Of a stretch of 64,000 nucleotides of DNA, positions 2,741 to 30,650 are shown piece after piece. The position numbers and the translations under genes are program-made. The notes under the pieces were generated by a model. The model was not told where the DNA came from. It saw only the letters and a program-made list of their open reading frames with translations, and made no database searches. The DNA is from a virus, in IMG/VR virus record IMGVR_UViG_3300032236_001259, positions 1-64,000 of that record. One strand, 5' to 3'. Every line of letters begins with the position of its first letter. Position 1 is the first letter of the stretch.

Positions 2741-3277
2741 TTATTTTACATTCCAAATTTCCATTGGTAGATACTTTCTACAAATATCTGCAGTTAGTTT
2801 TTGGTGTGCTTCATAAACACTACCATAAACAGCAGGAGCAGCACCAGCAGCACCAGCAGCACCAGCAGCACCAGCAGCACCAGCAGCACCAGCAGCAACA
2901 GAAGCAGCACGAGCAGCAGCATCAGCAGCAGCATAAGTAGCAGTATAAGCAGCAGTATAAGCAGCAGTATAAGAAGCAGCATCAGCAGCACAAGCAGCAG
3001 CATCCAACTCTTCTCTACTAATCTTACCCTCTCCAAATGCGATAGCAGCATCGACAGCCCTAACGCTTCTTTCATCCTTCATTAGATGTCTGACTGTATT
3101 AGCACAGTGACCCTTGGCTAGTGTTAGACGTTGCAGATCATAGGGGTTAGTTTTTTGAAATAGCCACAACAGCCAGTCACCTCGATGACAAGTTGTATAG
3201 ATATCTTCCCATGACTTATCAGATGCCCAATCTGTTGCTGCTTTGCAAGCATTTAGTTTAATTAGTAGTTCTTTCAT
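2741..3277 (-). CDS. Alanine-rich Imm-5-like paralog, copy 3 (tandem-repeat expanded)
   Basis: 178 residues with the family head and tail. The middle is expanded by a (GAA)n peptide repeat, written Gly-Ala-Ala, encoded by a perfect 9-bp DNA repeat (2837-2890), followed by a YTAAYTAAYTA stretch. The regularity suggests very recent slipped-strand or unequal recombination. Long leucine-rich and serine-rich frames over the same bases are by-products of the GCA/GCN repeat. Copy 4 lies immediately upstream with a six-base gap. Confidence 0.85.
   Translation of the reverse strand: MKELLIKLNACKAATDWASDKSWEDIYTTCHRGDWLLWLFQKTNPYDLQRLTLAKGHCANTVRHLMKDERSVRAVDAAIAFGEGKISREELDAAACAADAASYTAAYTAAYTATYAAADAAARAASVAAGAAGAAGAAGAAGAAGAAPAVYGSVYEAHQKLTADICRKYLPMEIWNVK
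2837..2890. repeat. Six perfect 9-bp tandem repeats (AGCAGCACC) inside paralog copy 3
   Basis: The unit AGCAGCACC is repeated six times without a mismatch and continues on either side in imperfect form. On the coding strand it encodes Gly-Ala-Ala. Perfect units of a multiple of three can expand or contract without breaking the reading frame. Confidence 0.95.
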
Positions 3278-3283
3278 GACTTT

Positions 3284-3841
3284 TTATTTTACATTCCAAA
3301 TTTCCATTGGTAAATACTTTCTACAAATATCTGCAGTTAGCTTTTGGTTTGCTTCATAAGCAATATCATCAGCAACAGCAGCAGCCCAAGCAGCAGCATG
3401 GGCAGCATCAGCAGCAGTAGACCAAGCAGCATCAGCAGCAGTACTATCAGCAGCAGCCCAAGCAGCATAATAATTAGTACGAGTAGCAGCACGAACATCA
3501 GCAGCACAAGCAGTAACAGCATCAGCAGCAGCACGAGCAGCATCAGAAGCAGCAGTAGCAGCTGCATCCAATTCTTCTTTAGTAATCTTACCCTCACCAA
3601 AAGCGATAGCTGAATCAACGGCTTTAATACTTCTTTCGTCTTTCATTAGATGCCTGACTGTATTAGCGCAATGACCCTTAGCTAGTGTTAGAAGCTGTAA
3701 ATTATCAGGGTTAGTTCTTTGAAATAACCATAGTGTCCAGTCACCTCTGTGACAAGTTGCATAGACTTCTTCCCAAGATTTATCAACTGCCCATTCTGTT
3801 GCTTCTTCGCAAGCAGCTAGTTTAATTAGTAGTTCTTTCAT
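3284..3841 (-). CDS. Alanine-rich Imm-5-like paralog, copy 4
   Basis: 185 residues. The variable alanine-rich part is long (about 75 residues) and includes blocks shared with copy 2 (WSTAADAAHAAAWAA) next to blocks found nowhere else here (VTACAADVRAATRTNYY). It ends AYEANQKLTADICRKYLP, identical to several other copies. Head-to-tail with copy 3. Confidence 0.85.
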   Translation of the reverse strand: MKELLIKLAACEEATEWAVDKSWEEVYATCHRGDWTLWLFQRTNPDNLQLLTLAKGHCANTVRHLMKDERSIKAVDSAIAFGEGKITKEELDAAATAASDAARAAADAVTACAADVRAATRTNYYAAWAAADSTAADAAWSTAADAAHAAAWAAAVADDIAYEANQKLTADICRKYLPMEIWNVK

Positions 3842-5599: not shown

Positions 5600-5636
5600 C
5601 AAGCAACTTGATTTTTTAGGAAACACAAAGGAATAA
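5600..5636 (-). promoter_or_regulatory. Repeated intergenic element A (copy 1 of 3)
   Basis: On the leftward strand this reads CCTTTGTGTTTC, two bases, AAAAAATCAAGTTGC. Near-identical elements occur at 16262-16292 and 21160-21187, each in an intergenic gap. It precedes the secreted hydrolase gene by about 75 bases and follows a terminator hairpin, so it is placed like a promoter or 5' regulatory element. TATATTCG lies between it and the ATG. Confidence 0.5.
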
Positions 5637-5639
5637 AAA

Positions 5640-5662
5640 GAGCGGGACTATTAATCCCGCTC
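5640..5662 (-). terminator. Intrinsic terminator after the 5751-6035 gene
   Basis: GAGCGGGA and TCCCGCTC form a perfect 8-bp stem with a 7-base loop. On the leftward strand the stem is followed by CTTTTTATT, a U-rich tract. It ends leftward transcription ahead of the hydrolase gene. Confidence 0.75.
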
Positions 5663-5731
5663 CTCCAGTTTTTCTAGGTAGTTTATGATGTGACTAGAAA
5701 CACATCCTCATAACGGCTTACTACATGCCTC

Positions 5732-5751
5732 GTACAAGTATATGCTTGTAC
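5732..5751 (-). terminator. Hairpin at the stop codon of the 5751-6035 gene
   Basis: GTACAAG, a 6-base loop and CTTGTAC form a perfect 7-bp stem touching the TAG stop. There is no good U-tract, so it may protect the 3' end of the mRNA or only assist the terminator at 5640-5662. Confidence 0.45.
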
Positions 5752-6035
5752 TAATCAAATACTCTGCTGATTGTTTGATCAAGAGGATTGAATTCTACCT
5801 GATTTGTGCTGCGATAAATACCTGGTTCAAAAACCATTCTATCGTGTTCATCATGGGTTAAGATACCCATGTCTTTAAGCATGAATTTGATAGCGTCACC
5901 ATCTTGTTCAAACTCAATACCAGCGTCGCTTTTGATTACGTGCTTTATCATCTGTCCGGTGGTAGCGCTAAGATGCTCTCCTTCCCCAAGGCACAGTGTT
6001 TTTACTTTTTTTGTTTTTGTCTTTTTATTTGCCAT
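5751..6035 (-). CDS. Small basic-start phage protein of unknown function
   Basis: 94 residues starting MANKKTKTKKVK, then a compact domain with GEGEHLSATTGQMIKHV and VFEPGIYRSTNQVEFNPL. The lysine-rich start could bind nucleic acid. It is flanked downstream by two hairpins and is the last gene of its transcription unit. No family recognised. Confidence 0.7.
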   Translation of the reverse strand: MANKKTKTKKVKTLCLGEGEHLSATTGQMIKHVIKSDAGIEFEQDGDAIKFMLKDMGILTHDEHDRMVFEPGIYRSTNQVEFNPLDQTISRVFD

Positions 6036-10025: not shown

Positions 10026-10607
10026 TTATTTTTGTATGTTCCAAATTTCAATTGGTAGATATTTTCGGCAAATGTCTGCTGTTAATTTTTGGTTTTCTTT
10101 ATAAGTACTACAATAAGCAACAGCAGCATCATAAACAATAGCACTAGCAGCAGCAGCGTCAGCAGAAGCAGCCCAAGCAGCAGCACCAGCAGCACCAGCA
10201 GCATAAGCAGCAGAATAAGCAGCAGCAGCAGCAGTAACAGCACGAGCGGCACCATTAGAAGCATAATAAGCAGCACGAGCGGCACCATCAGCAGCATCCC
10301 AAGAAGCACGACCAGCAGCACCACAAGCAGCGTCCAATTCTTCTCTACTAATCTTACCTTCTCCAAAAGCAATGGCTGCATCGACAGCTTTTAAGCTTCT
10401 TTCGTCTTTCATTAAGTGCCGAACCGTGTTAGCGCAGTGACCTTTTGCTAAAGTTAGAAGCTGTATATCTTCGGGATTAGTTCTTTGGAATAGCCACAAC
10501 GGCCAGTCACCTCTATTACAAGTAGAGTAAGCCTCCTCCCATGACTTGCCAGTTGCCCAGTATTTTGCATCTTCGCAAGCATTTAGTTTCTCTAATAGTT
10601 CTTTCAT
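10026..10607 (-). CDS. Alanine-rich Imm-5-like paralog, copy 5
   Basis: 193 residues, with the longest variable region of the standard copies (about 95 residues of Ala with Ser, Gly, Tyr and Asp). The head is the most divergent: CEDAKYWATGKSWEEAYSTCNRGDWPLWLF, landmarks CEDAKYWATGK and TCNRGDWPLW. The tail ends EIWNIQK rather than NVK. First of three consecutive copies running leftwards (10026-11547). Confidence 0.85.
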   Translation of the reverse strand: MKELLEKLNACEDAKYWATGKSWEEAYSTCNRGDWPLWLFQRTNPEDIQLLTLAKGHCANTVRHLMKDERSLKAVDAAIAFGEGKISREELDAACGAAGRASWDAADGAARAAYYASNGAARAVTAAAAAYSAAYAAGAAGAAAWAASADAAAASAIVYDAAVAYCSTYKENQKLTADICRKYLPIEIWNIQK

Positions 10608-10617
10608 TTTATTAAAT

Positions 10618-11121
10618 TTAAAGATTTATATTCCAGATTTTAATTGGCAAATACTTTCTACAGATGTCTGCTGTTAGCTTTTGGTTTCCTTCTTCAGCAG
10701 CACTAGCATAATAAGCGGCAGCAGCAGCATCATAACCATCAGCAGCATAATAAGCAGCAGAAGCAGCATCACGAGCAGCAGCCCCAGCAGCAGACCAAGC
10801 ATAAGCAGCATAATCGGCAGCACGAGCAGCAGCAGCAGCAGCAATCTTTAATTCTTTTCTACTAATCCTACCTTCACCAAATGCTATTGCGGCATCAACG
10901 GCTTTTAAACTTCTTTCATCTGTCATTAGATGTCTAACTGTGTTAGCGCAGTGACCTTTAGCTAGTGTTAGAAGCTGTATATCTTTTGGATTAGTTCTTA
11001 CAAATAACCACAGCGACCAGTCGCCTCTGTGACAAGTTGCGTATGCTTCTTCCCAGGATTTATCTCCTACCCAGTCTGTTGCTTCTTCGCAAGCAGCTAG
11101 TTTAATTAGTAGTTCTTTCAT
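10618..11121 (-). CDS. Alanine-rich Imm-5-like paralog, copy 6
   Basis: 167 residues. The variable part is rich in AA(D/A)YAA units and the tail reads KIWNINL. In the head, the usual ELDA segment that precedes the variable part is ELKIAA, so the boundary of the alanine-rich part is shifted. It is separated by ten bases from copy 5 and six from copy 7. Confidence 0.85.
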   Translation of the reverse strand: MKELLIKLAACEEATDWVGDKSWEEAYATCHRGDWSLWLFVRTNPKDIQLLTLAKGHCANTVRHLMTDERSLKAVDAAIAFGEGRISRKELKIAAAAAARAADYAAYAWSAAGAAARDAASAAYYAADGYDAAAAAYYASAAEEGNQKLTADICRKYLPIKIWNINL

Positions 11122-11127
11122 AACTTT

Positions 11128-11547
11128 TTATTTTACATTCCAAATTTCGATTGGTAGATATTTTCTACAGATGTCAGCAATTAGTTTTTGGTTTGCTTCC
11201 CAAGCAGCAGCAGCAGCCCAAGCAGCAACAGCAGCATCAGCAGCTGCATAAGCAGCACGAACAGCAGCATCATCCAATTCTTCTCTACTAATCCTACCTT
11301 CCCCAAACGCGATAGCAGCATCAACAGCTTTAATGCTTCTCTCGTCCGTCATTAAATGTCTTACCGTGTTAGCACAGTGACCTTTTGCTAAGGTTAGAAG
11401 CTGTATATCTTCGGGATTGGTTCTTTTAAATAGCCATAACAACCAATCGCCTCGATGACAAGTAGAGTAAATTTCTTCCCATGACTTGTCAGCTGCCCAG
11501 TCTGTTGCTTCTTCGCAAGCATTTAGTTTAATTAGTAGTTCTTTCAT
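11128..11547 (-). CDS. Alanine-rich Imm-5-like paralog, copy 7 (shortest)
   Basis: 139 residues from the ATG at 11547, which matches the MKELLIKL start of the other copies. A longer open frame from further upstream would overlap the 11558-11806 gene and lacks family similarity. The alanine-rich middle is only about 25 residues, and the tail has KLIADICRKY where others have KLTADICRKY. Confidence 0.85.
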   Translation of the reverse strand: MKELLIKLNACEEATDWAADKSWEEIYSTCHRGDWLLWLFKRTNPEDIQLLTLAKGHCANTVRHLMTDERSIKAVDAAIAFGEGRISREELDDAAVRAAYAAADAAVAAWAAAAAWEANQKLIADICRKYLPIEIWNVK

Positions 11548-11557
11548 GATTATCAAT

Positions 11558-11806
11558 TTAGTTGGAATTAGGAGAGAATAATTTTTCTCTTTCTTTAAAC
11601 AGCTCATAATTTTTTTCCATATCTTTCGCTTTATTAATATCACCATCTGTAATTTTATTTATAATGTACATGTGAGCATACATTAAAATTTCATTTTCTT
11701 TTTCCTCGTCGGGTATAAGAATGTGATCATCGATAGCTTCTTTTAATCTAGTTAAAATATCTTCTCTTGACATTGATGCGGACATCAGTAAAAATAATTG
11801 ATCCAT
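11558..11806 (-). CDS. Small helical protein of unknown function
   Basis: 82 residues beginning MDQLFLLMSASMSREDIL. Mostly helical and acidic in the middle (IPDEEKENEILMY), with a C-terminal charged helix (AKDMEKNYELFKEREKLF). It is the first gene downstream of the MoxR/VWA terminator and upstream of three paralog copies. No family recognised. Confidence 0.65.
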   Translation of the reverse strand: MDQLFLLMSASMSREDILTRLKEAIDDHILIPDEEKENEILMYAHMYIINKITDGDINKAKDMEKNYELFKEREKLFSPNSN

Positions 11807-18917: not shown

Positions 18918-19436
18918 TTAAAGTTTTACATTCCAAATTTCAATTGGTAGATATTTTCTACAGATGTCTGCTGTTAGTTTTAAGTTTGCTTCATAAGCAA
19001 TATCATCAGCAGCACCAGCAGCATAAGCAGCAGCATAAGCAGCATTAGCAGCAGCGTAACCATCAAAAGTATCAGCACCAGCAGCCCAAGCAGCAGCACC
19101 AGCATAATAATCAGCATGAGCAACAGCACGAGCAGCATCAAGAGCCTCCTTAGCAACAGCATCCAATTCTTCTATAGTAATCTTACCCTCTCCAAATGCG
19201 ATAGCAGCATCAACAGCTTTTAAACTTCTTTCATCTGTCATTAGATGTCTAACAGTATTAGCGCAATGACCCTTAGCTAATTTTAGAAGTTGCAAATCGC
19301 CTTTATTAGTTTTTGCAAATAACCATAATAACCAGTCACCTCTATTACAAGTAGAGTAGTTTTCTTCCCATGACTTGTCAGCTGCCCAGTCTGTTGCTTC
19401 TTTGCAAGCACCTAGTTTGATTAGTAGTTCTTTCAT
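18918..19436 (-). CDS. Alanine-rich Imm-5-like paralog, copy 8
   Basis: 172 residues from the ATG at 19436. The alanine-rich part (about 70 residues) contains several Tyr and Asp (HADYYAGAAAWAAGAD). The head has TNKGDLQLLKLAKGH where others have TNP-DLQLLTLAKGH. It stands alone, not in tandem, between a 45-residue lipoprotein gene and an unrelated gene. Confidence 0.85.
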   Translation of the reverse strand: MKELLIKLGACKEATDWAADKSWEENYSTCNRGDWLLWLFAKTNKGDLQLLKLAKGHCANTVRHLMTDERSLKAVDAAIAFGEGKITIEELDAVAKEALDAARAVAHADYYAGAAAWAAGADTFDGYAAANAAYAAAYAAGAADDIAYEANLKLTADICRKYLPIEIWNVKL

Positions 19437-19450
19437 AACTTTTATTTCTT

Positions 19451-19588
19451 TTAATAACTGATTCGTTTTCCTACATAACATCCTTTACGGTGTTCTTTGT
19501 ATTTGAATCCATAAACGCTTTTACTGTACTCACTCATGCAAGAACCAAACATTACACATACGATTGACAATAATAGTAACTTTTTCAT
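19451..19588 (-). CDS. Very small lipoprotein (45 residues)
   Basis: ATG at 19588 to TAA at 19451 encodes 45 residues. The N-terminus MKKLLLLSIVCVMFGSC is a complete lipoprotein signal (lipobox FGSC), and the mature part has many basic and aromatic residues (YGFKYKEHRKGCYVGKR). Such tiny lipoproteins are common in phages. It may also be an outer-membrane spanin-like or exclusion protein; the sequence does not decide. Confidence 0.65.
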   Translation of the reverse strand: MKKLLLLSIVCVMFGSCMSEYSKSVYGFKYKEHRKGCYVGKRISY

Positions 19589-19937: not shown

Positions 19938-19954
19938 TAATTTTTATATTAAGT

Positions 19955-20041
19955 AGTCAGGACAGGATTTGAACCTGTATATATCGTTCCTCTTTTCTGT
20001 GTTTTCTTGAGACGATAGCCGTACCATTCCGCCACCTGACT
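19955..20041 (-). tRNA. tRNA-like gene, Leu(CAA)-type with an enlarged anticodon arm
   Basis: On the leftward strand a perfect 7-bp acceptor stem (AGTCAGG with CCTGACT) and a perfect T arm (ACAGG, TTCAAAT, CCTGT) are clear, and the D region TGGCGGAATGGTA is tRNA-like. The anticodon stem ATCGT/ACGAT encloses 24 bases instead of 7. Its first seven, CTCAAGA, form a normal loop with anticodon CAA; the other 17 look like an insertion. The variable region is only about four bases, unlike normal leucine tRNAs. It may be a tRNA with a short insertion, a decoy or a decaying gene. Confidence 0.6.
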
Positions 20042-20573: not shown

Positions 20574-20852
20574 TCATAAAGAAGAATTATTATTAGAATC
20601 ACTATCAGAATTATTCAAAAGATCATTAGCAGTATCAAGAGCAATAAAGCTTTCCATAAATACATTACAAGCATCTAGCATATCCGCCATCGGTTCATCT
20701 ACATAAGGTGCTATATAATTATCTTCATTCCATTTATGAACACACATTATGATTCTCTTCTGAATCTCTTCAAGAGGAATATCGGAATCCTCTCTGATTA
20801 TAAGTTCTAATAAACCAATAGCAAGTACTCTTTGGATTTCAATAATAGACAT
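20574..20852 (-). CDS. Small helical protein, paralog of the 18224-18493 product
   Basis: 92 residues. It aligns with the 18224-18493 protein over LLELIIRED, CVHKWNED, MLDACNVFMES and ALDTANDLL, with a serine/asparagine tail added. It is the last protein gene before the long non-coding segment. Function unknown. Confidence 0.65.
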   Translation of the reverse strand: MSIIEIQRVLAIGLLELIIREDSDIPLEEIQKRIIMCVHKWNEDNYIAPYVDEPMADMLDACNVFMESFIALDTANDLLNNSDSDSNNNSSL

Positions 20853-21061
20853 GTTATATTGTTTTAAAGTGTGGTAAAGAAATATAAGAAAGTATATAAA
20901 GAACGTGTTTATGTATCCGTGGTGTAATAAGGGCAGCGTGGTAAAATGTGGTAAATTGTGGAATATAATGTCTGTTTGTAATAGAATGTGGTGGAGGCGA
21001 AACGAGCAACGAAGTTGCGAGTTGAGACGCTAATCTGCGTTTTACGTTCATCTTTCACAAA

Positions 21062-21077
21062 CGTTTCACGTGGAACA
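21062..21077. promoter_or_regulatory. parS-like site 1
   Basis: CGTTTCACGTGGAACA matches the bacterial parS consensus TGTTTCACGTGAAACA at 14 of 16 positions, keeping the core CACGTG. parS is bound by ParB, a CTP-dependent clamp that organises chromosome segregation. No parA or parB gene is seen in this window. Confidence 0.5.
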
Positions 21078-21159
21078 ATTATATAATTTATATTCACAAA
21101 CTATTCGTCGATAAAATTTGTTCGTTCGTCGATAAATACGAACCGTTTTTTAATAACAA

Positions 21160-21187
21160 AATAGATTTTTTCAGAAACACACAGGAA
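21160..21187 (-). promoter_or_regulatory. Repeated intergenic element A (copy 3 of 3)
   Basis: On the leftward strand it reads TTCCTGTGTGTTTCTGAAAA followed by AATC, matching the TGTGTTTC-NN-AAAAAATC core of the elements at 5600-5636 and 16262-16292. The AAGTTGC extension is missing here. Confidence 0.45.
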
Positions 21188-21235
21188 TGTTTGGACCGTT
21201 CTCAAACGATACAAAAACATCATAAAAACACATTT

Positions 21236-21251
21236 TGTTTAACGTGAAACT
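21236..21251. promoter_or_regulatory. parS-like site 2
   Basis: TGTTTAACGTGAAACT matches the parS consensus at 14 of 16 positions, with mismatches at position 6 and at the last base. It lies about 175 bases from site 1. Position 6 falls in the core, so ParB binding may be weaker than at site 1. Confidence 0.4.
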
Positions 21252-21284
21252 AAAAAAGCCCGGGAATTTTGATTTATCGTTAAA

Positions 21285-21315
21285 CAAAAAGCCCCGAAGT
21301 AGACACTTCAGGGCT
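21285..21315 (-). terminator. Strong intrinsic terminator of the non-coding RNA region
   Basis: On the leftward strand AGCCCTGAAGT, loop GTCT and ACTTCGGGGCT form an 11-bp stem with one G-T pair, followed directly by TTTTTGTTT. It lies 25 bases past the tRNA-like element at 21341-21427 and defines the 3' end of a leftward transcript. Confidence 0.9.
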
Positions 21316-21340
21316 AACAATTGCTAATCCCAAAACTAGC

Positions 21341-21427
21341 AGGGAAAGCGGGATTCGAACCCGCTACCCGTTTTATATCAGTGGAGCATACCAATATATC
21401 ACAAACCTCTCCTTTAGAGTTTTCCCT
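21341..21427 (-). tRNA. tRNA-like gene with an over-long central helix
   Basis: On the leftward strand the 7-bp acceptor stem (AGGGAAA with TTTCCCT) and the T arm (GCGGG, TTCGAAT, CCCGC) are perfect, and the 3' end reads GCTA, close to CCA. A CTCT/AGAG D stem with loop AAAGG can form. The centre folds as a 9-bp helix TATATTGGT/ACTGATATA around loop ATGCTCC, anticodon GCT (serine) if read normally. GTTT and AAAC can extend it. A normal anticodon stem has 5 bp, and no long variable arm typical of serine tRNA is seen. The identity is therefore uncertain. Confidence 0.6.
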
Positions 21428-22048
21428 TACCACCCATATTAAAAAACACTGAATAGTAAAATGTAATCATGGCAACAGTAAGTTTATTTTTAAGGTTCAT
21501 CAATTCACTATCTATGGATATTATAGCAAAGCTCTCCCTTATTTATCCTTCTTACGGGAATTAACCGGTATAGCCATTTGTCCGGTTGTGTATTTGATTA
21601 CATTTACATCTCTATTATTATTGCGTACATATCAGCGGAGACGTACCCGCTTAACACATTCTACATTATAGGCAGAACCCAGTCTGGTCCTATTAGAGGT
21701 AGGAAGATTTATCGCTTTACTGCTTTGCCGACTTAAAGCGTGACAAGTTACTACGGCTTTTAGAGCATCTCGCTACCACGCGAGACTCTGCAGTTTATTC
21801 CTCTGACTCTACGAATTGCTACGAAGGCTGAGACAATATGATACTTCAAAGGACTCATTCGGATATACTAAGGCTTTGGCTTTGCTGTTGTCAGCATTAC
21901 CCACACAATACCTGCCTGTTCTTCCGAGACAAATCTTCTTTTGCCCTTATACCTCTCATACCATGAAGGCACATCAAGCTCTATCCGTGAACAGTTGACG
22001 GCTACTAACAGACCCGTTATCTGGGTGTAACTTAATACACCCCCTCAC

Positions 22049-22064
22049 GTCCGGCTTATCGGAC
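22049..22064 (-). promoter_or_regulatory. Hairpin with hexaloop ATAAGC (GTCCG stem)
   Basis: Leftward strand: GTCCG, ATAAGC, CGGAC. The stem is unrelated in sequence to the promoter-associated hairpins at 22857, 22931 and 23033, but the six-base loop is identical. Confidence 0.6.
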
Positions 22065-22122
22065 ATCCACGCACTTGGCTGGTTTCACTTACACTCAAAG
22101 AACTGGGATGAATAACAGCAAT

Positions 22123-22138
22123 ACACGCTTATGTGTAC
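22123..22138 (-). promoter_or_regulatory. Hairpin with hexaloop ATAAGC (TACAC stem)
   Basis: Leftward strand: TACAC, ATAAGC, GTGTA. A second occurrence of the conserved loop inside the non-coding RNA region, 59 bases from the GTCCG hairpin, again with a different stem. Confidence 0.6.
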
Positions 22139-22153
22139 GTCTGTAACTTATTC

Positions 22154-22201
22154 GTTCTTAGCCCACGACTCGAACGTGGCGTGTCCCATCTGATGCTAAG
22201 A
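22154..22201 (-). ncRNA. tRNA-like acceptor/T-arm minihelix without D and anticodon arms
   Basis: Leftward strand: TCTTAGC and GCTAAGA form a perfect 7-bp acceptor stem; the T arm CCACG, TTCGAGT, CGTGG is perfect; only 15 bases separate the first acceptor strand from the T arm. Alternatively TCTTA/TGGGA could be an anticodon stem of a tRNA whose 5' half is missing. It sits directly between the 22234-22791 gene and the candidate large RNA, in the same transcript orientation. Confidence 0.55.
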
Positions 22202-22233
22202 TTTGAAATATGGATACGGCGGCGGGTTAATAA

Positions 22234-22791
22234 TTAATTGTTTAATAACGCTTTTGCTTTCTTCTGCTCTATGCGGCGAACCTTCGCAGCCTCCGCGTTG
22301 AGAGCAATACGAGCCTCTAACTGCTCATTGAATACACTTGATTTTGCGTCCTCTCTAACGAAGCGTGAAGCATATCTAACATTTCTCAACTGTGCTTTAG
22401 CCTGTGCAGCTATCTGTTCAGTAGTGAATGCTGTTTGATCTTTGAACACGCCGTTCTTATCAGTCGACTTCATAAACTCCAATGCTGCATCCTTATCAGA
22501 CATAGCAAAGTTTGACATGATGGTTTCACGTATGATACCAAAATCCAATCGGAAGTTAAGAAAGTCCTGTGAACATAACTTCTTTGCCAATGCTGTTGGT
22601 AATTCAAAATCCCCGATGGTTACCTTTGGTGCATCATACTGTGAATTCATTACACCGAATGCGAAATGTAAAACTACACCGATTGCTCTCTTTAACGTTT
22701 CACCTTCAAACGTTTCTTCTATCGGTTTAATGAATATCGCTTTCTTACTAGATGAAAAATCATTCTCAATCTTAATAGATACTGTTTTCAT
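22234..22791 (-). CDS. Unknown basic helical protein behind three tandem promoters
   Basis: 185 residues. Beta-rich N-terminal part (VSIKIENDFSSSKKAIFIKP), a middle with VTIGDFELPTALAKKLC, and a long basic, alanine-rich C-terminal helix (LEARIALNAEAAKVRRIEQKKAKALL) that could bind nucleic acid, written here as landmarks. Its base composition is visibly less AT-rich than its neighbours, as in highly expressed genes. It is the first and only protein gene of a leftward unit that begins at the promoters 22882-23067 and runs into the non-coding RNA. It may act with that RNA. No family recognised. Confidence 0.75.
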   Translation of the reverse strand: MKTVSIKIENDFSSSKKAIFIKPIEETFEGETLKRAIGVVLHFAFGVMNSQYDAPKVTIGDFELPTALAKKLCSQDFLNFRLDFGIIRETIMSNFAMSDKDAALEFMKSTDKNGVFKDQTAFTTEQIAAQAKAQLRNVRYASRFVREDAKSSVFNEQLEARIALNAEAAKVRRIEQKKAKALLNN

Positions 22792-22856
22792 AACTTTAAA
22801 TGGTTGTTATGCCACCGTATGCCATATTTCAAAGAACTTATCTATACTCATGTGTT

Positions 22857-22906
22857 GTTAGGGCTTATCCTAACCGCACAACAAAGATAAAGGTACATTC
22901 TGTTAA
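22857..22906 (-). promoter_or_regulatory. Tandem promoter module 1 with 5' hairpin
   Basis: Leftward strand: TTAACAGAATGTACC, then the -7 box TATCTTTG (22889-22882, fitting TAnnTTTG), 7 bases, then the hairpin GTTAGG-ATAAGC-CCTAAC. The start site should fall just before the hairpin, so the mRNA would begin with it. Confidence 0.7.
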
Positions 22907-22930
22907 CGTGGTGTTAATTTCATTCTCACT

Positions 22931-22980
22931 GTTAGGGCTTATCCTAACCGCAAAACAAAGATAAGGGTACATTCTGTTAA
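22931..22980 (-). promoter_or_regulatory. Tandem promoter module 2 with 5' hairpin
   Basis: Same layout as module 1: TTAACAGAATGTACCC, -7 box TATCTTTG at 22963-22956, 7 bases, hairpin GTTAGG-ATAAGC-CCTAAC at 22931-22948. Nearly identical to module 1 over 50 bases while the sequence between modules is unrelated. Confidence 0.7.
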
Positions 22981-23032
22981 CACTATGTTAAAACCTAAAA
23001 AGAACTAAATGTTAAACAAAGGTTAAAATTTG

Positions 23033-23084
23033 GTAGGGGGCTTATCCCCGACCGCAAAACAAAGATAAGGGTACATTTTGTTAA
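23033..23084 (-). promoter_or_regulatory. Tandem promoter module 3 with compensated hairpin
   Basis: TTAACAAAATGTACCC, -7 box TATCTTTG at 23067-23060, 7 bases, then GTCGGGG-ATAAGC-CCCCTAC. Compared with modules 1 and 2, both strands of the stem changed together (TAGG/CCTA to GGGG/CCCC) while the loop stayed the same, which supports selection for the RNA or cruciform structure. Confidence 0.7.
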
Positions 23085-23099
23085 TAAAAAGTTAAGACT

Positions 23100-23384
23100 T
23101 TTTGTACCTACGAAAACCGTCGTAGGCTGGGGATAGCGCAGCTTACTCTTCCTATCGCGCCCCATTTTACAGCCATCCTCAATATATACATATATACGCC
23201 CCCCGCTACGCTCCCCCACATATTCGCTCCCATACTCGCCTCCCCATACTCACCCCATACTCACCCACTACAAAGCCACACCGTGCCCCCACATTGCGAT
23301 CCCCGTTTCACCTACACACTTTTTTACCTTTAAAAAGCACAACCCCCCTATAAAAAATTTCCAAAAATTTTACGCCCCTATTGG
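23100..23384. other. Non-coding C-rich / G-rich strand-asymmetric segment
   Basis: No credible gene. The rightward strand is rich in C runs with repeated CCATACTC units (23229-23270), so the leftward strand has GGG runs separated by TGAGTAT and could form a G-quadruplex. It also contains a CCTACG/CGTAGG inverted repeat at 23106-23126. A replication origin, packaging site or transcription-roadblock function is possible; the sequence does not decide. Confidence 0.45.
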
Positions 23385-23451: not shown

Positions 23452-23820
23452 TTGAGTGATCTTTTAAGCATAGATTGGTACTATCAGTCGCCTATTGACT
23501 TGGAGCATAAACAATATGTACTATTAGGGTATTTACAGAAAGTGGACAAATCTTTCATGGAGAAGAAGCTATCTCCACATCTGATGCATCTGCATAAGAT
23601 AATCTACGAGCTTAATAAGTTTGAATCTGATATTAGCTCCTTCGTAAGAGCCCTGGAAAAGAACAGATATATTCATTTCACGGATCACTCTTTAAAAGGA
23701 ATCGACAACAGCCATATAGAAACTATACGGTCTGTCGTCGATTTTAGTGTTCCTCAATTGAAAACTAGGATGGACCTAGGTTATAATATCCTTACTAAGA
23801 ACAATCAGTTTTTGTACTGA
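23452..23820 (+). CDS. Conserved T4-type phage protein of unknown function
   Basis: 122 residues read from a TTG codon; no ATG is available upstream in frame. Landmarks are DWYYQSPIDLEHKQYVLLGYLQ, split as SPIDLEHKQYVLLGYLQ, KKLSPHLMHL, and a C-terminal VPQLKTRMDLGYNIL with final LY. I recall similar proteins in large marine myoviruses, where they have no assigned role. It is a lone rightward gene with a late-type motif upstream, and its 3' end overlaps the convergent next gene by 26 bases. Confidence 0.7.
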   Translation: MSDLLSIDWYYQSPIDLEHKQYVLLGYLQKVDKSFMEKKLSPHLMHLHKIIYELNKFESDISSFVRALEKNRYIHFTDHSLKGIDNSHIETIRSVVDFSVPQLKTRMDLGYNILTKNNQFLY

Positions 23821-27992: not shown

Positions 27993-28583
27993 TTATTTTA
28001 CATTCCAAATTTCTATTGGTAAGTATTTTCTACAGATGTCTGCTGTTAGCTTTTGATTTGATTCATAAGCAGCCAAAGCACCCTCAACATCCTCAGCATC
28101 AGCATTGGCAGACCAAGCAGCAGCACAAGCAGTATGAGCAGCCCAATTAGCAGCACGAGCAGCATCATAAGCAGCAGCATCAGCATCAGCAGCATTAGCA
28201 TCAGCAGCATTAGCAGCCGAACAAGCAGCATCAGCACCCCAAGCAGCAGCATCCAATTCTTCTATAGTAATCTTCCCCTCACCAAAAGCGATAGCAGCAT
28301 CGACAGCTTTTAAGCTTCTTTCGTCTGTCATTATATGTCTAACAGTATTTGCACAGTGACCCTTAGCTAGTGTTAACAGTTGTAGATCCTTTGGATTAGT
28401 TTTTGCAAATAGCCACAATAACCAATCTCCTCGATGACAGGTAGAGTAGACTTCTTCCCATGACTTATCAGCTACCCAGTCTTTTGCTTCTTCACAAGCA
28501 TTTAGCTTAACTAAAAGAAGTTGAAATCTTTTTACTTTGTAAAAACGATATGCTCGTTTGAGCAGATTTAGTATTGTTTTCAT
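27993..28583 (-). CDS. Alanine-rich Imm-5-like paralog, copy 9 (with N-terminal extension)
   Basis: 196 residues. Instead of MKELLIKL it begins MKTILNLLKRAYRFYKVKRF followed by QLLLVKLNACEEA, an added basic amphipathic stretch of about 18 residues. The variable part holds many AAD and ADA units with Asn. It lies far from the other copies, just ahead of thyA, so the family has moved around the genome by itself. Confidence 0.85.
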   Translation of the reverse strand: MKTILNLLKRAYRFYKVKRFQLLLVKLNACEEAKDWVADKSWEEVYSTCHRGDWLLWLFAKTNPKDLQLLTLAKGHCANTVRHIMTDERSLKAVDAAIAFGEGKITIEELDAAAWGADAACSAANAADANAADADAAAYDAARAANWAAHTACAAAWSANADAEDVEGALAAYESNQKLTADICRKYLPIEIWNVK

Positions 28584-30086: not shown

Positions 30087-30650
30087 TTAACCATTTAACA
30101 ACAAATCTCTATATCGATAATAAAATTTATCTAGTAGAACATCTTTTAGATGTTCAAAACTCTTCTCTTTATGTAAAAAAGGAGCTTCTTTTACTACTAC
30201 TGCCATCTCATTTGGAGATGTCACTTCAATCAATCCTGCATAAGCAGGAATCATTGATGTAGTCAATAATCCTTTAGGAGCAGCATAAAAGAATTTATTA
30301 GGTTTTTTTATAAAATCTAAAGGATCGTTAGATTCTAAAAGTTGATGTTTATCTACTTTGTTGAAGTCGTCTTTAAAGTCACCCCTGGTGACCTTCACTT
30401 CGACTTCATACACATATCCGCTTTCTGAAACTGAGAAAAAATCACTTTCCCATTTGTATATATAAGCATTATTTATAACATATTTGTGGTTGATATATCT
30501 AAGCTGAAGAGAGCTTATGATGTCTTTAGAATTTAATTCATCTATTGATTTAACTGAAGAAATATTCTTAACTGATTTTTTCTTCTTATGGGTGGGTTTT
30601 ACTATATTTGAGTCTTTAAGAGACTTAAAATCTATTAACAAATCAGACAT
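30087..30650 (-). CDS. PD-(D/E)XK nuclease-like protein
   Basis: 187 residues. After a basic N-terminus, residues about 66-90 read KWESDFFSVSESGYV then YEVEVKVTRGDF: an acidic residue, a beta hairpin and an ExK pair (Glu84, Lys86) as in PD-(D/E)XK nucleases. PNKFFYAAPKGLL and IPAYAGLIEV continue the fold seen in MmcB/VRR-type DNA repair nucleases. First gene of the leftward block at the transcription switch. Confidence 0.65.
   Translation of the reverse strand: MSDLLIDFKSLKDSNIVKPTHKKKKSVKNISSVKSIDELNSKDIISSLQLRYINHKYVINNAYIYKWESDFFSVSESGYVYEVEVKVTRGDFKDDFNKVDKHQLLESNDPLDFIKKPNKFFYAAPKGLLTTSMIPAYAGLIEVTSPNEMAVVVKEAPFLHKEKSFEHLKDVLLDKFYYRYRDLLLNG

Follow-up and report, generated by a model that had tools for sequence, protein, structure and literature searches.

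A candidate large non-coding RNA in a predicted phage transcription unit with the layout of a host rRNA operon

What does the longest gene-free stretch in a compact piece of phage DNA encode, if anything? The question is raised by a 64-kb window (the whole stretch of DNA analysed, part of a 70,939-base IMG/VR virus record) in which long non-coding DNA is scarce and whose longest gene-free stretch lies on the minus strand between a 185-aa gene (end 22234) and a 92-aa gene (start 20852). An earlier note on this DNA had proposed that the region holds a large structured RNA of the GOLLD/ROOL class, or of a new class, enclosed by tRNA-like elements. A dedicated leftward non-coding RNA unit with tRNA-like elements at both sides is supported by our analysis, and strong expression is predicted, the unit being probably highly expressed. 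The analysis adds boxA sites, hairpins with an AUAAGC loop and a leader–trailer helix, all absent from that note. At the level of the sequence the parts and their order are there to be read, and their rrn-like arrangement is well supported. With moderate confidence we take positions 21285 to about 23075 of the minus strand to form a single transcription unit arranged like a host rRNA operon. A fuller reading, to which we give a probability of roughly 40%, would have the large non-coding RNA of this phage belong to a new class and be expressed from an operon copied from that of the host's rRNA, both in its architecture and in its antitermination signals, with its partner protein encoded in the 16S place.

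Promoters, hairpins and boxA signals

Genes for a phage baseplate, a primase and an RNA ligase are present in the window. By RNA ligase (60–68% identity), its closest relatives are large phages known from metagenomes of environmental samples, and several of these carry tRNA islands and a tmRNA. We infer that the host belongs to the Bacteroidota, probably to the Chitinophagaceae. A family of phage tRNA-like elements represented in the window at 19953–20041 (described below) was found in bacteria on 6 contigs from 84,980 genomes, all MAGs, three of the six being labelled Sediminibacterium, Chitinophagaceae and Flavobacterium.

Promoters were called from the –7 boxes (TATCTTTG) in three 62-nt repeats on the minus strand, at 22882–22889 (copy 1, proximal), 22956–22963 (copy 2) and 23060–23067 (copy 3, distal). 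We read these boxes as Bacteroidota-type, taking TAnnTTTG to be the Bacteroidota promoter consensus. The boxes of the three tandem promoters described earlier are thus present, but what the promoters read into first is the 185-aa gene (22234–22791, minus strand), which separates them from the RNA. Just past the predicted start in each promoter repeat lies a hairpin with the loop AUAAGC (22857–22874 in copy 1; 22931–22948 in copy 2; 23036–23049 in copy 3, at the predicted 5′ end of its transcript), and two further hairpins of this kind, also on the minus strand, lie within the RNA body (22121–22138 and 22047–22066). The stems vary while the loop is kept (GTTAGG/CCTAAC, GGGG/CCCC, GTACAC/GTGTAT, ATGTCCG/CGGACGT); four distinct stems with this loop fall within 1.1 kb, against a maximum of two in 60 shuffled strands. 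On the opposite strand of the promoter–hairpin repeat, at 23004–23106 (+), there is a sub-threshold match to the Rfam aspC motif RF04313 (32 bits, cut-off 100, E 0.016), a family that may model a similar promoter–hairpin unit. Used as a homologue finder, the promoter and hairpin pattern gave matches at chance level.

Two of the hairpins are boxB-like in position. The copy-1 hairpin ends 19 nt before a boxA in the leader (GTTCTTTGA, 22829–22837, minus strand), the same word as in host rRNA leaders, and the hairpin at 22121–22138 stands 17 nt before a second copy in the 5′ part of the RNA body (22095–22103, minus strand). The combination of an AUAAGC hairpin and a boxA at a distance of 17 or 19 nt occurs twice in the unit; 4.7 Mb of other loci contain no further instance. 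Counting both strands, the window has three copies of GTTCTTTGA against 0.97 expected, two of them on the minus strand of the unit. The word is identified as boxA because AAGTTCTTTGAAAG lies 145–151 nt before the 16S rRNA in two Chitinophagaceae genomes; AAGTTCTTTGAAA is present in the 16S leaders of two Chitinophagaceae genomes, and the leader of the phage unit carries this host-type boxA. Since the leader boxA of Flavobacterium differs (GTTCATAGACA), the match is limited to hosts of the Chitinophagaceae type, the type to which the presumed host probably belongs. Among relative phages GTTCTTTGA is enriched 5.9-fold in non-coding DNA, with sites 14 nt before or inside tmRNAs, at GOLLD 5′ ends and about 27 nt upstream of tRNA clusters.

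In phage lambda, too, the nut sites bring a boxA and a hairpin together in a transcript leader. There, however, the hairpin does not stand before boxA, whereas in the phage unit it precedes boxA, which is the order of rRNA operons, and no N-like protein was identified. As expected of an rRNA-type antitermination unit, the second hairpin–boxA set precedes the large RNA.

The RNA body and its tRNA-like borders

The candidate non-coding RNA body of about 730 nt (21428–22155, minus strand) is bordered on its 5′ side by a tRNA-like minihelix of 46 nt (22156–22201, minus strand), in which a 7-bp acceptor and a T-arm (CCACG TTCGAGT CGTGG) are separated by 15 nt and the D and anticodon arms are missing. 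On its 3′ side follows an 87-nt tRNA-like element (21341–21427, minus strand) with acceptor AGGGAAA/TTTCCCT, T-arm GCGGG TTCGAAT CCCGC, a D-arm-like hairpin and, at the anticodon position, a long 9-bp hairpin unlike that of a tRNA. Beyond it, on the same strand, come a small hairpin (GCTAGTTTTGGGATTAGC, 21323–21340) and an intrinsic terminator with an 11-bp stem and a T-tract (21285–21315). That tRNA-like pieces lie on either side was confirmed, a T-arm with a 7-bp Watson–Crick acceptor being seen 0 times in 60 shuffled windows, and so was the 11-bp terminator closing the unit, which was located at 21315–21290. ARAGORN accepted neither tRNA-like element as a canonical tRNA cloverleaf.

Minihelices of acceptor and T-arm without D and anticodon arms also occur in relatives, at L093:1065 (–), L025:13462 (+) and L163:558 (+), with 12–19 nt from acceptor to T-arm; two of the three adjoin tRNAs. 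The window element at 19953–20041 (minus strand), called as tRNA-Ser in the window, belongs to a phage-specific tRNA-like family also present in L022, L049, L057, L078, L289, L299, L311 and others. Its members have a near-invariant acceptor (AGTCAGG/CCTGACT), a conserved D-arm (TGGCGGAATTGGTAGACGC) and T-arm (ACAGGTTCGAATCCTGT), and a hypervariable insert that replaces the anticodon arm. We collected 180 distinct elements, most of 60–190 nt, with up to six per contig; 143 were not called as tRNA, and an exact 26-mer of the family is found in at least 120 IMG/VR stretches. The family is a natural ‘tRNA scaffold’ for variable RNAs.

Is the body itself more than spacer? Six-frame read-through translations of 21285–22215 gave no Pfam match above cut-off, in line with the earlier statement that the region has no credible gene, and we rejected a coding or pseudogene reading of the body on finding no gene and no Pfam match in six frames. 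The GC-richness reported earlier is real relative to the window (0.42 vs 0.31) but not distinctive, since the neighbouring genes already reach 0.39–0.40. The many perfect helices stand in part: hairpins of at least 5 bp number 9 against a shuffled mean of 5.0, with 1 of 60 shuffles as good, but those of at least 6 bp number just 2 against 1.2 in shuffles. The whole candidate folds with a z of –3.2, mostly due to the terminator and tRNA-like end; the body alone has a z of –2.6, with an MFE 9 kcal/mol under shuffles, and a z of –1.0 from the second boxA onward. Folding of the body is thus weakly above chance. Elsewhere in the window, the 200-nt windows 23601–23800 (–), 30201–30400 and 5601–5800 (the latter two on both strands) fold better than the RNA body, with z of about –6.9, –5.3 and –4.5.

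Searches for homologues of the body returned none by blastn on phages, only short chance-level matches in a DNA search of 50 relative records, and none by nhmmer --max over the collected loci; six-site back-translated IMG/VR scans and exact motif scans found none for the unit. No Rfam family fits the body. Three GC-rich, gene-free stretches without tRNAs in relatives (L148, L164 and L135) were considered as counterparts and looked unrelated on reading.

These results leave room for an explanation in which the control signals and the tRNA-like remnants are real and the 730 nt between them are functionless, either a decayed tRNA or RNA island or an untranslated tail. A body that folds little better than shuffles would agree with this, the absence of homologues is what a fast-drifting sequence would give, and both tRNA-like elements could be decayed tRNAs, given the tRNA islands of the relatives. 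Such decay has nevertheless left the second hairpin–boxA module and the third AUAAGC hairpin intact inside the body and the terminator and T-arms perfect, and a window as compact as this one has little long non-coding DNA. We regard a functionless spacer as unlikely, although it deserves serious weight, and tentatively take the RNA to be functional and to represent a new class.

A helix around the 185-aa gene

The leader and trailer of the 185-aa gene can pair. The leader strand of this helix (22811–22833, minus strand) begins inside boxA 1 and the trailer strand (22202–22223, minus strand) lies just behind the gene, which is thereby clamped by a helix of 22 pairs that contains a single bulge (–34.2 kcal/mol). 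Among the 83 ORFs of the window, the second-best leader–trailer pairing reaches –14.0 kcal/mol, none of 11,606 control pairings is as strong as that of the 185-aa gene, and the helix is also part of the MFE of the whole transcript. Taken without its boxA context, the repeat does not stand out from the other inverted repeats in the 64-kb window; the case for the helix is its position, not bare inverted-repeat strength. In the host rRNA operons examined (two Chitinophagaceae genomes), the pre-16S leader–trailer helix begins in the TTTGAAA stretch of boxA, another boxA-like word comes after it, and the spacer holds tRNA-Ile and tRNA-Ala. Directly past the trailer strand of the phage unit come the minihelix, then the hairpin and boxA, then the large RNA. 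No comparable boxA clamp helix was found at the GOLLD loci of relatives.

Bacterial rrn operons are described as having two boxB-boxA-boxC sets, one after the promoters and one before the 23S gene, together with leader–trailer helices (PMC10250234). The phage unit resembles them in its tandem promoters, a hairpin followed by boxA, a helix that starts in boxA and encloses the first product, a tRNA-like element, a second hairpin–boxA, a large RNA and a terminator. It differs from them in that the first product is the 185-aa mRNA and that both rRNA and 5S are missing, in its AUAAGC loop, which is absent from the host leaders examined, and in having one clamp helix, a second around the RNA body having been looked for and not found. 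No 16S, 23S or 5S rRNA family match was obtained in the unit, which is hence not an rRNA operon proper.

The 185-aa protein has no family match and no homologue in 50 relative records or by tblastn on phages, and its single-sequence structure model is of low confidence (pLDDT 45), with long C-terminal helices. An orphan gene flanked by inverted repeats would also suit a small mobile element (22202–22833) that landed in an RNA locus, its 22-bp repeats being DNA terminal repeats. One repeat overlaps boxA exactly as in the host pre-16S helices, however, the presence of a G–U pair and a single bulge suits an RNA helix, and we saw neither an obvious target duplication nor any similarity to transposases in the 185-aa protein, which makes a mobile element improbable.

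Known large RNAs and a proposed mechanism

The membership in GOLLD or ROOL suggested in the earlier note was not borne out, as a cmscan of 20850–23300 at E ≤ 10 lists neither. The GOLLD model (RF02032, conserved 3′ region) has no match at E ≤ 10 in the whole of the phage's own record, but scores above cut-off in 11 of 50 relative records (241–292 bits), and profiles built from the 3′ part, the 5′ part and the full length of GOLLDs from 10 relatives gave no match in nhmmer --max at E ≤ 100. In the nearest relative, G001, a strong GOLLD of 252 bits is closely followed by a tRNA. In layout, the GOLLD loci of relatives are the closest match that we found: boxA and the GOLLD 3′ end lie about 880 nt apart, and a tRNA comes next. 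The shared features are a phage-encoded RNA of 0.7–0.9 kb, a boxA at or near its 5′ end and a tRNA or tRNA-like element downstream; the RNA of the phage unit, however, has no sequence or covariance-model match and folds much more weakly. Four GOLLDs of relatives, run under the same protocol, have z of –3.6 to –9.1 and lie 26–36 kcal/mol under shuffles, whereas the body, with the z values given above, lacks such extensive structure.

A GOLLD or ROOL RNA that has diverged very far would fit the common genomic slot, the boxA start, the similar length and the downstream tRNA of nearly all the relatives' GOLLDs, as well as the tRNAs that GOLLD linkers can hold (PMC12286853), but this is very improbable: the GOLLDs of relatives score above 240 bits with RNA ligases about 62–68% identical to that of the window, and yet the RNA is matched neither by the Rfam model nor by the full-length profiles built from 10 relatives. 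ROOL is likewise a large phage RNA near tRNAs (PMC12286853), and differs in the lack of a cmscan match at E ≤ 10.

Among the GOLLDs of relatives (L197–L207, e.g. L140:4686–5101 (–)), the aligned ones start at a host-type boxA, TTCTTT(G/A)A opening 10 of 10, and a tRNA follows shortly downstream in nearly all. This suggests that GOLLD itself uses rRNA-style antitermination and tRNA-type 3′ processing.

The T-arm and 3′ acceptor half of the element at 21341–21427 resemble tmRNA (RF00023; sub-threshold, E 0.001), but this covers 17 of 374 model positions and ARAGORN called no tmRNA at the unit; with no complete model match and tag reading frame, we rejected tmRNA identity. Some phage tmRNAs (L010:2387–2787, L015:2333–2807, L198:102–472 and L201:3030–3410) have unusual, long tag peptides, for example ANVELSTWTFEDAMAFADGEFAMAA and DEKSTMTYDDLMAFVGMDYAVAA.

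Under the preferred reading, an rRNA-operon-like unit, the tandem promoters would give a transcript with a boxB-like hairpin and a host-type boxA in its leader, on which host Nus factors (NusB/S10) may let RNA polymerase read a long untranslated RNA without Rho termination. The calculated leader–trailer helix would clamp the 185-aa gene where an rRNA operon has its 16S rRNA, and RNase III would presumably cut the helix and free the 185-aa mRNA. The minihelix and the second hairpin–boxA would occupy the place of the rRNA-spacer tRNAs and the second antitermination site, and the non-coding RNA of about 730 nt that of 23S rRNA, followed by the tRNA-like element and the strong terminator. The tRNA-like elements are probably cutting sites for RNase P and 3′ nucleases that set the RNA ends. 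On the best reading, the unit releases one mRNA and one orphan stable RNA, the latter likely abundant during infection and filling the slot that GOLLD has in related phages. Our preferred guess is that it captures ribosomes or the co-encoded protein on its AUAAGC hairpins, as a scaffold or as a sink.

If this is true, phages mass-produce a long non-coding RNA by borrowing the rRNA antitermination machinery of the host, which would account for the escape of GOLLD and other untranslated RNAs from Rho termination. A boxA at the 5′ end would then be a sequence handle for large phage RNAs without homologues, and the role of giant phage RNAs would be approachable here via the co-encoded 185-aa protein.

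Elsewhere in the window, the minus strand encodes a small-protein family of nine paralogues (MKELLIKL.ACEEATDWAADKSWEE.Y.TCHRGDW...), at 21–452, 459–905, 2741–3277, 3284–3841, 10026–10607, 10618–11121, 11128–11646, 18918–19481 and 27993–28583; their ends are conserved, and an Ala/Tyr-rich middle varies in length.
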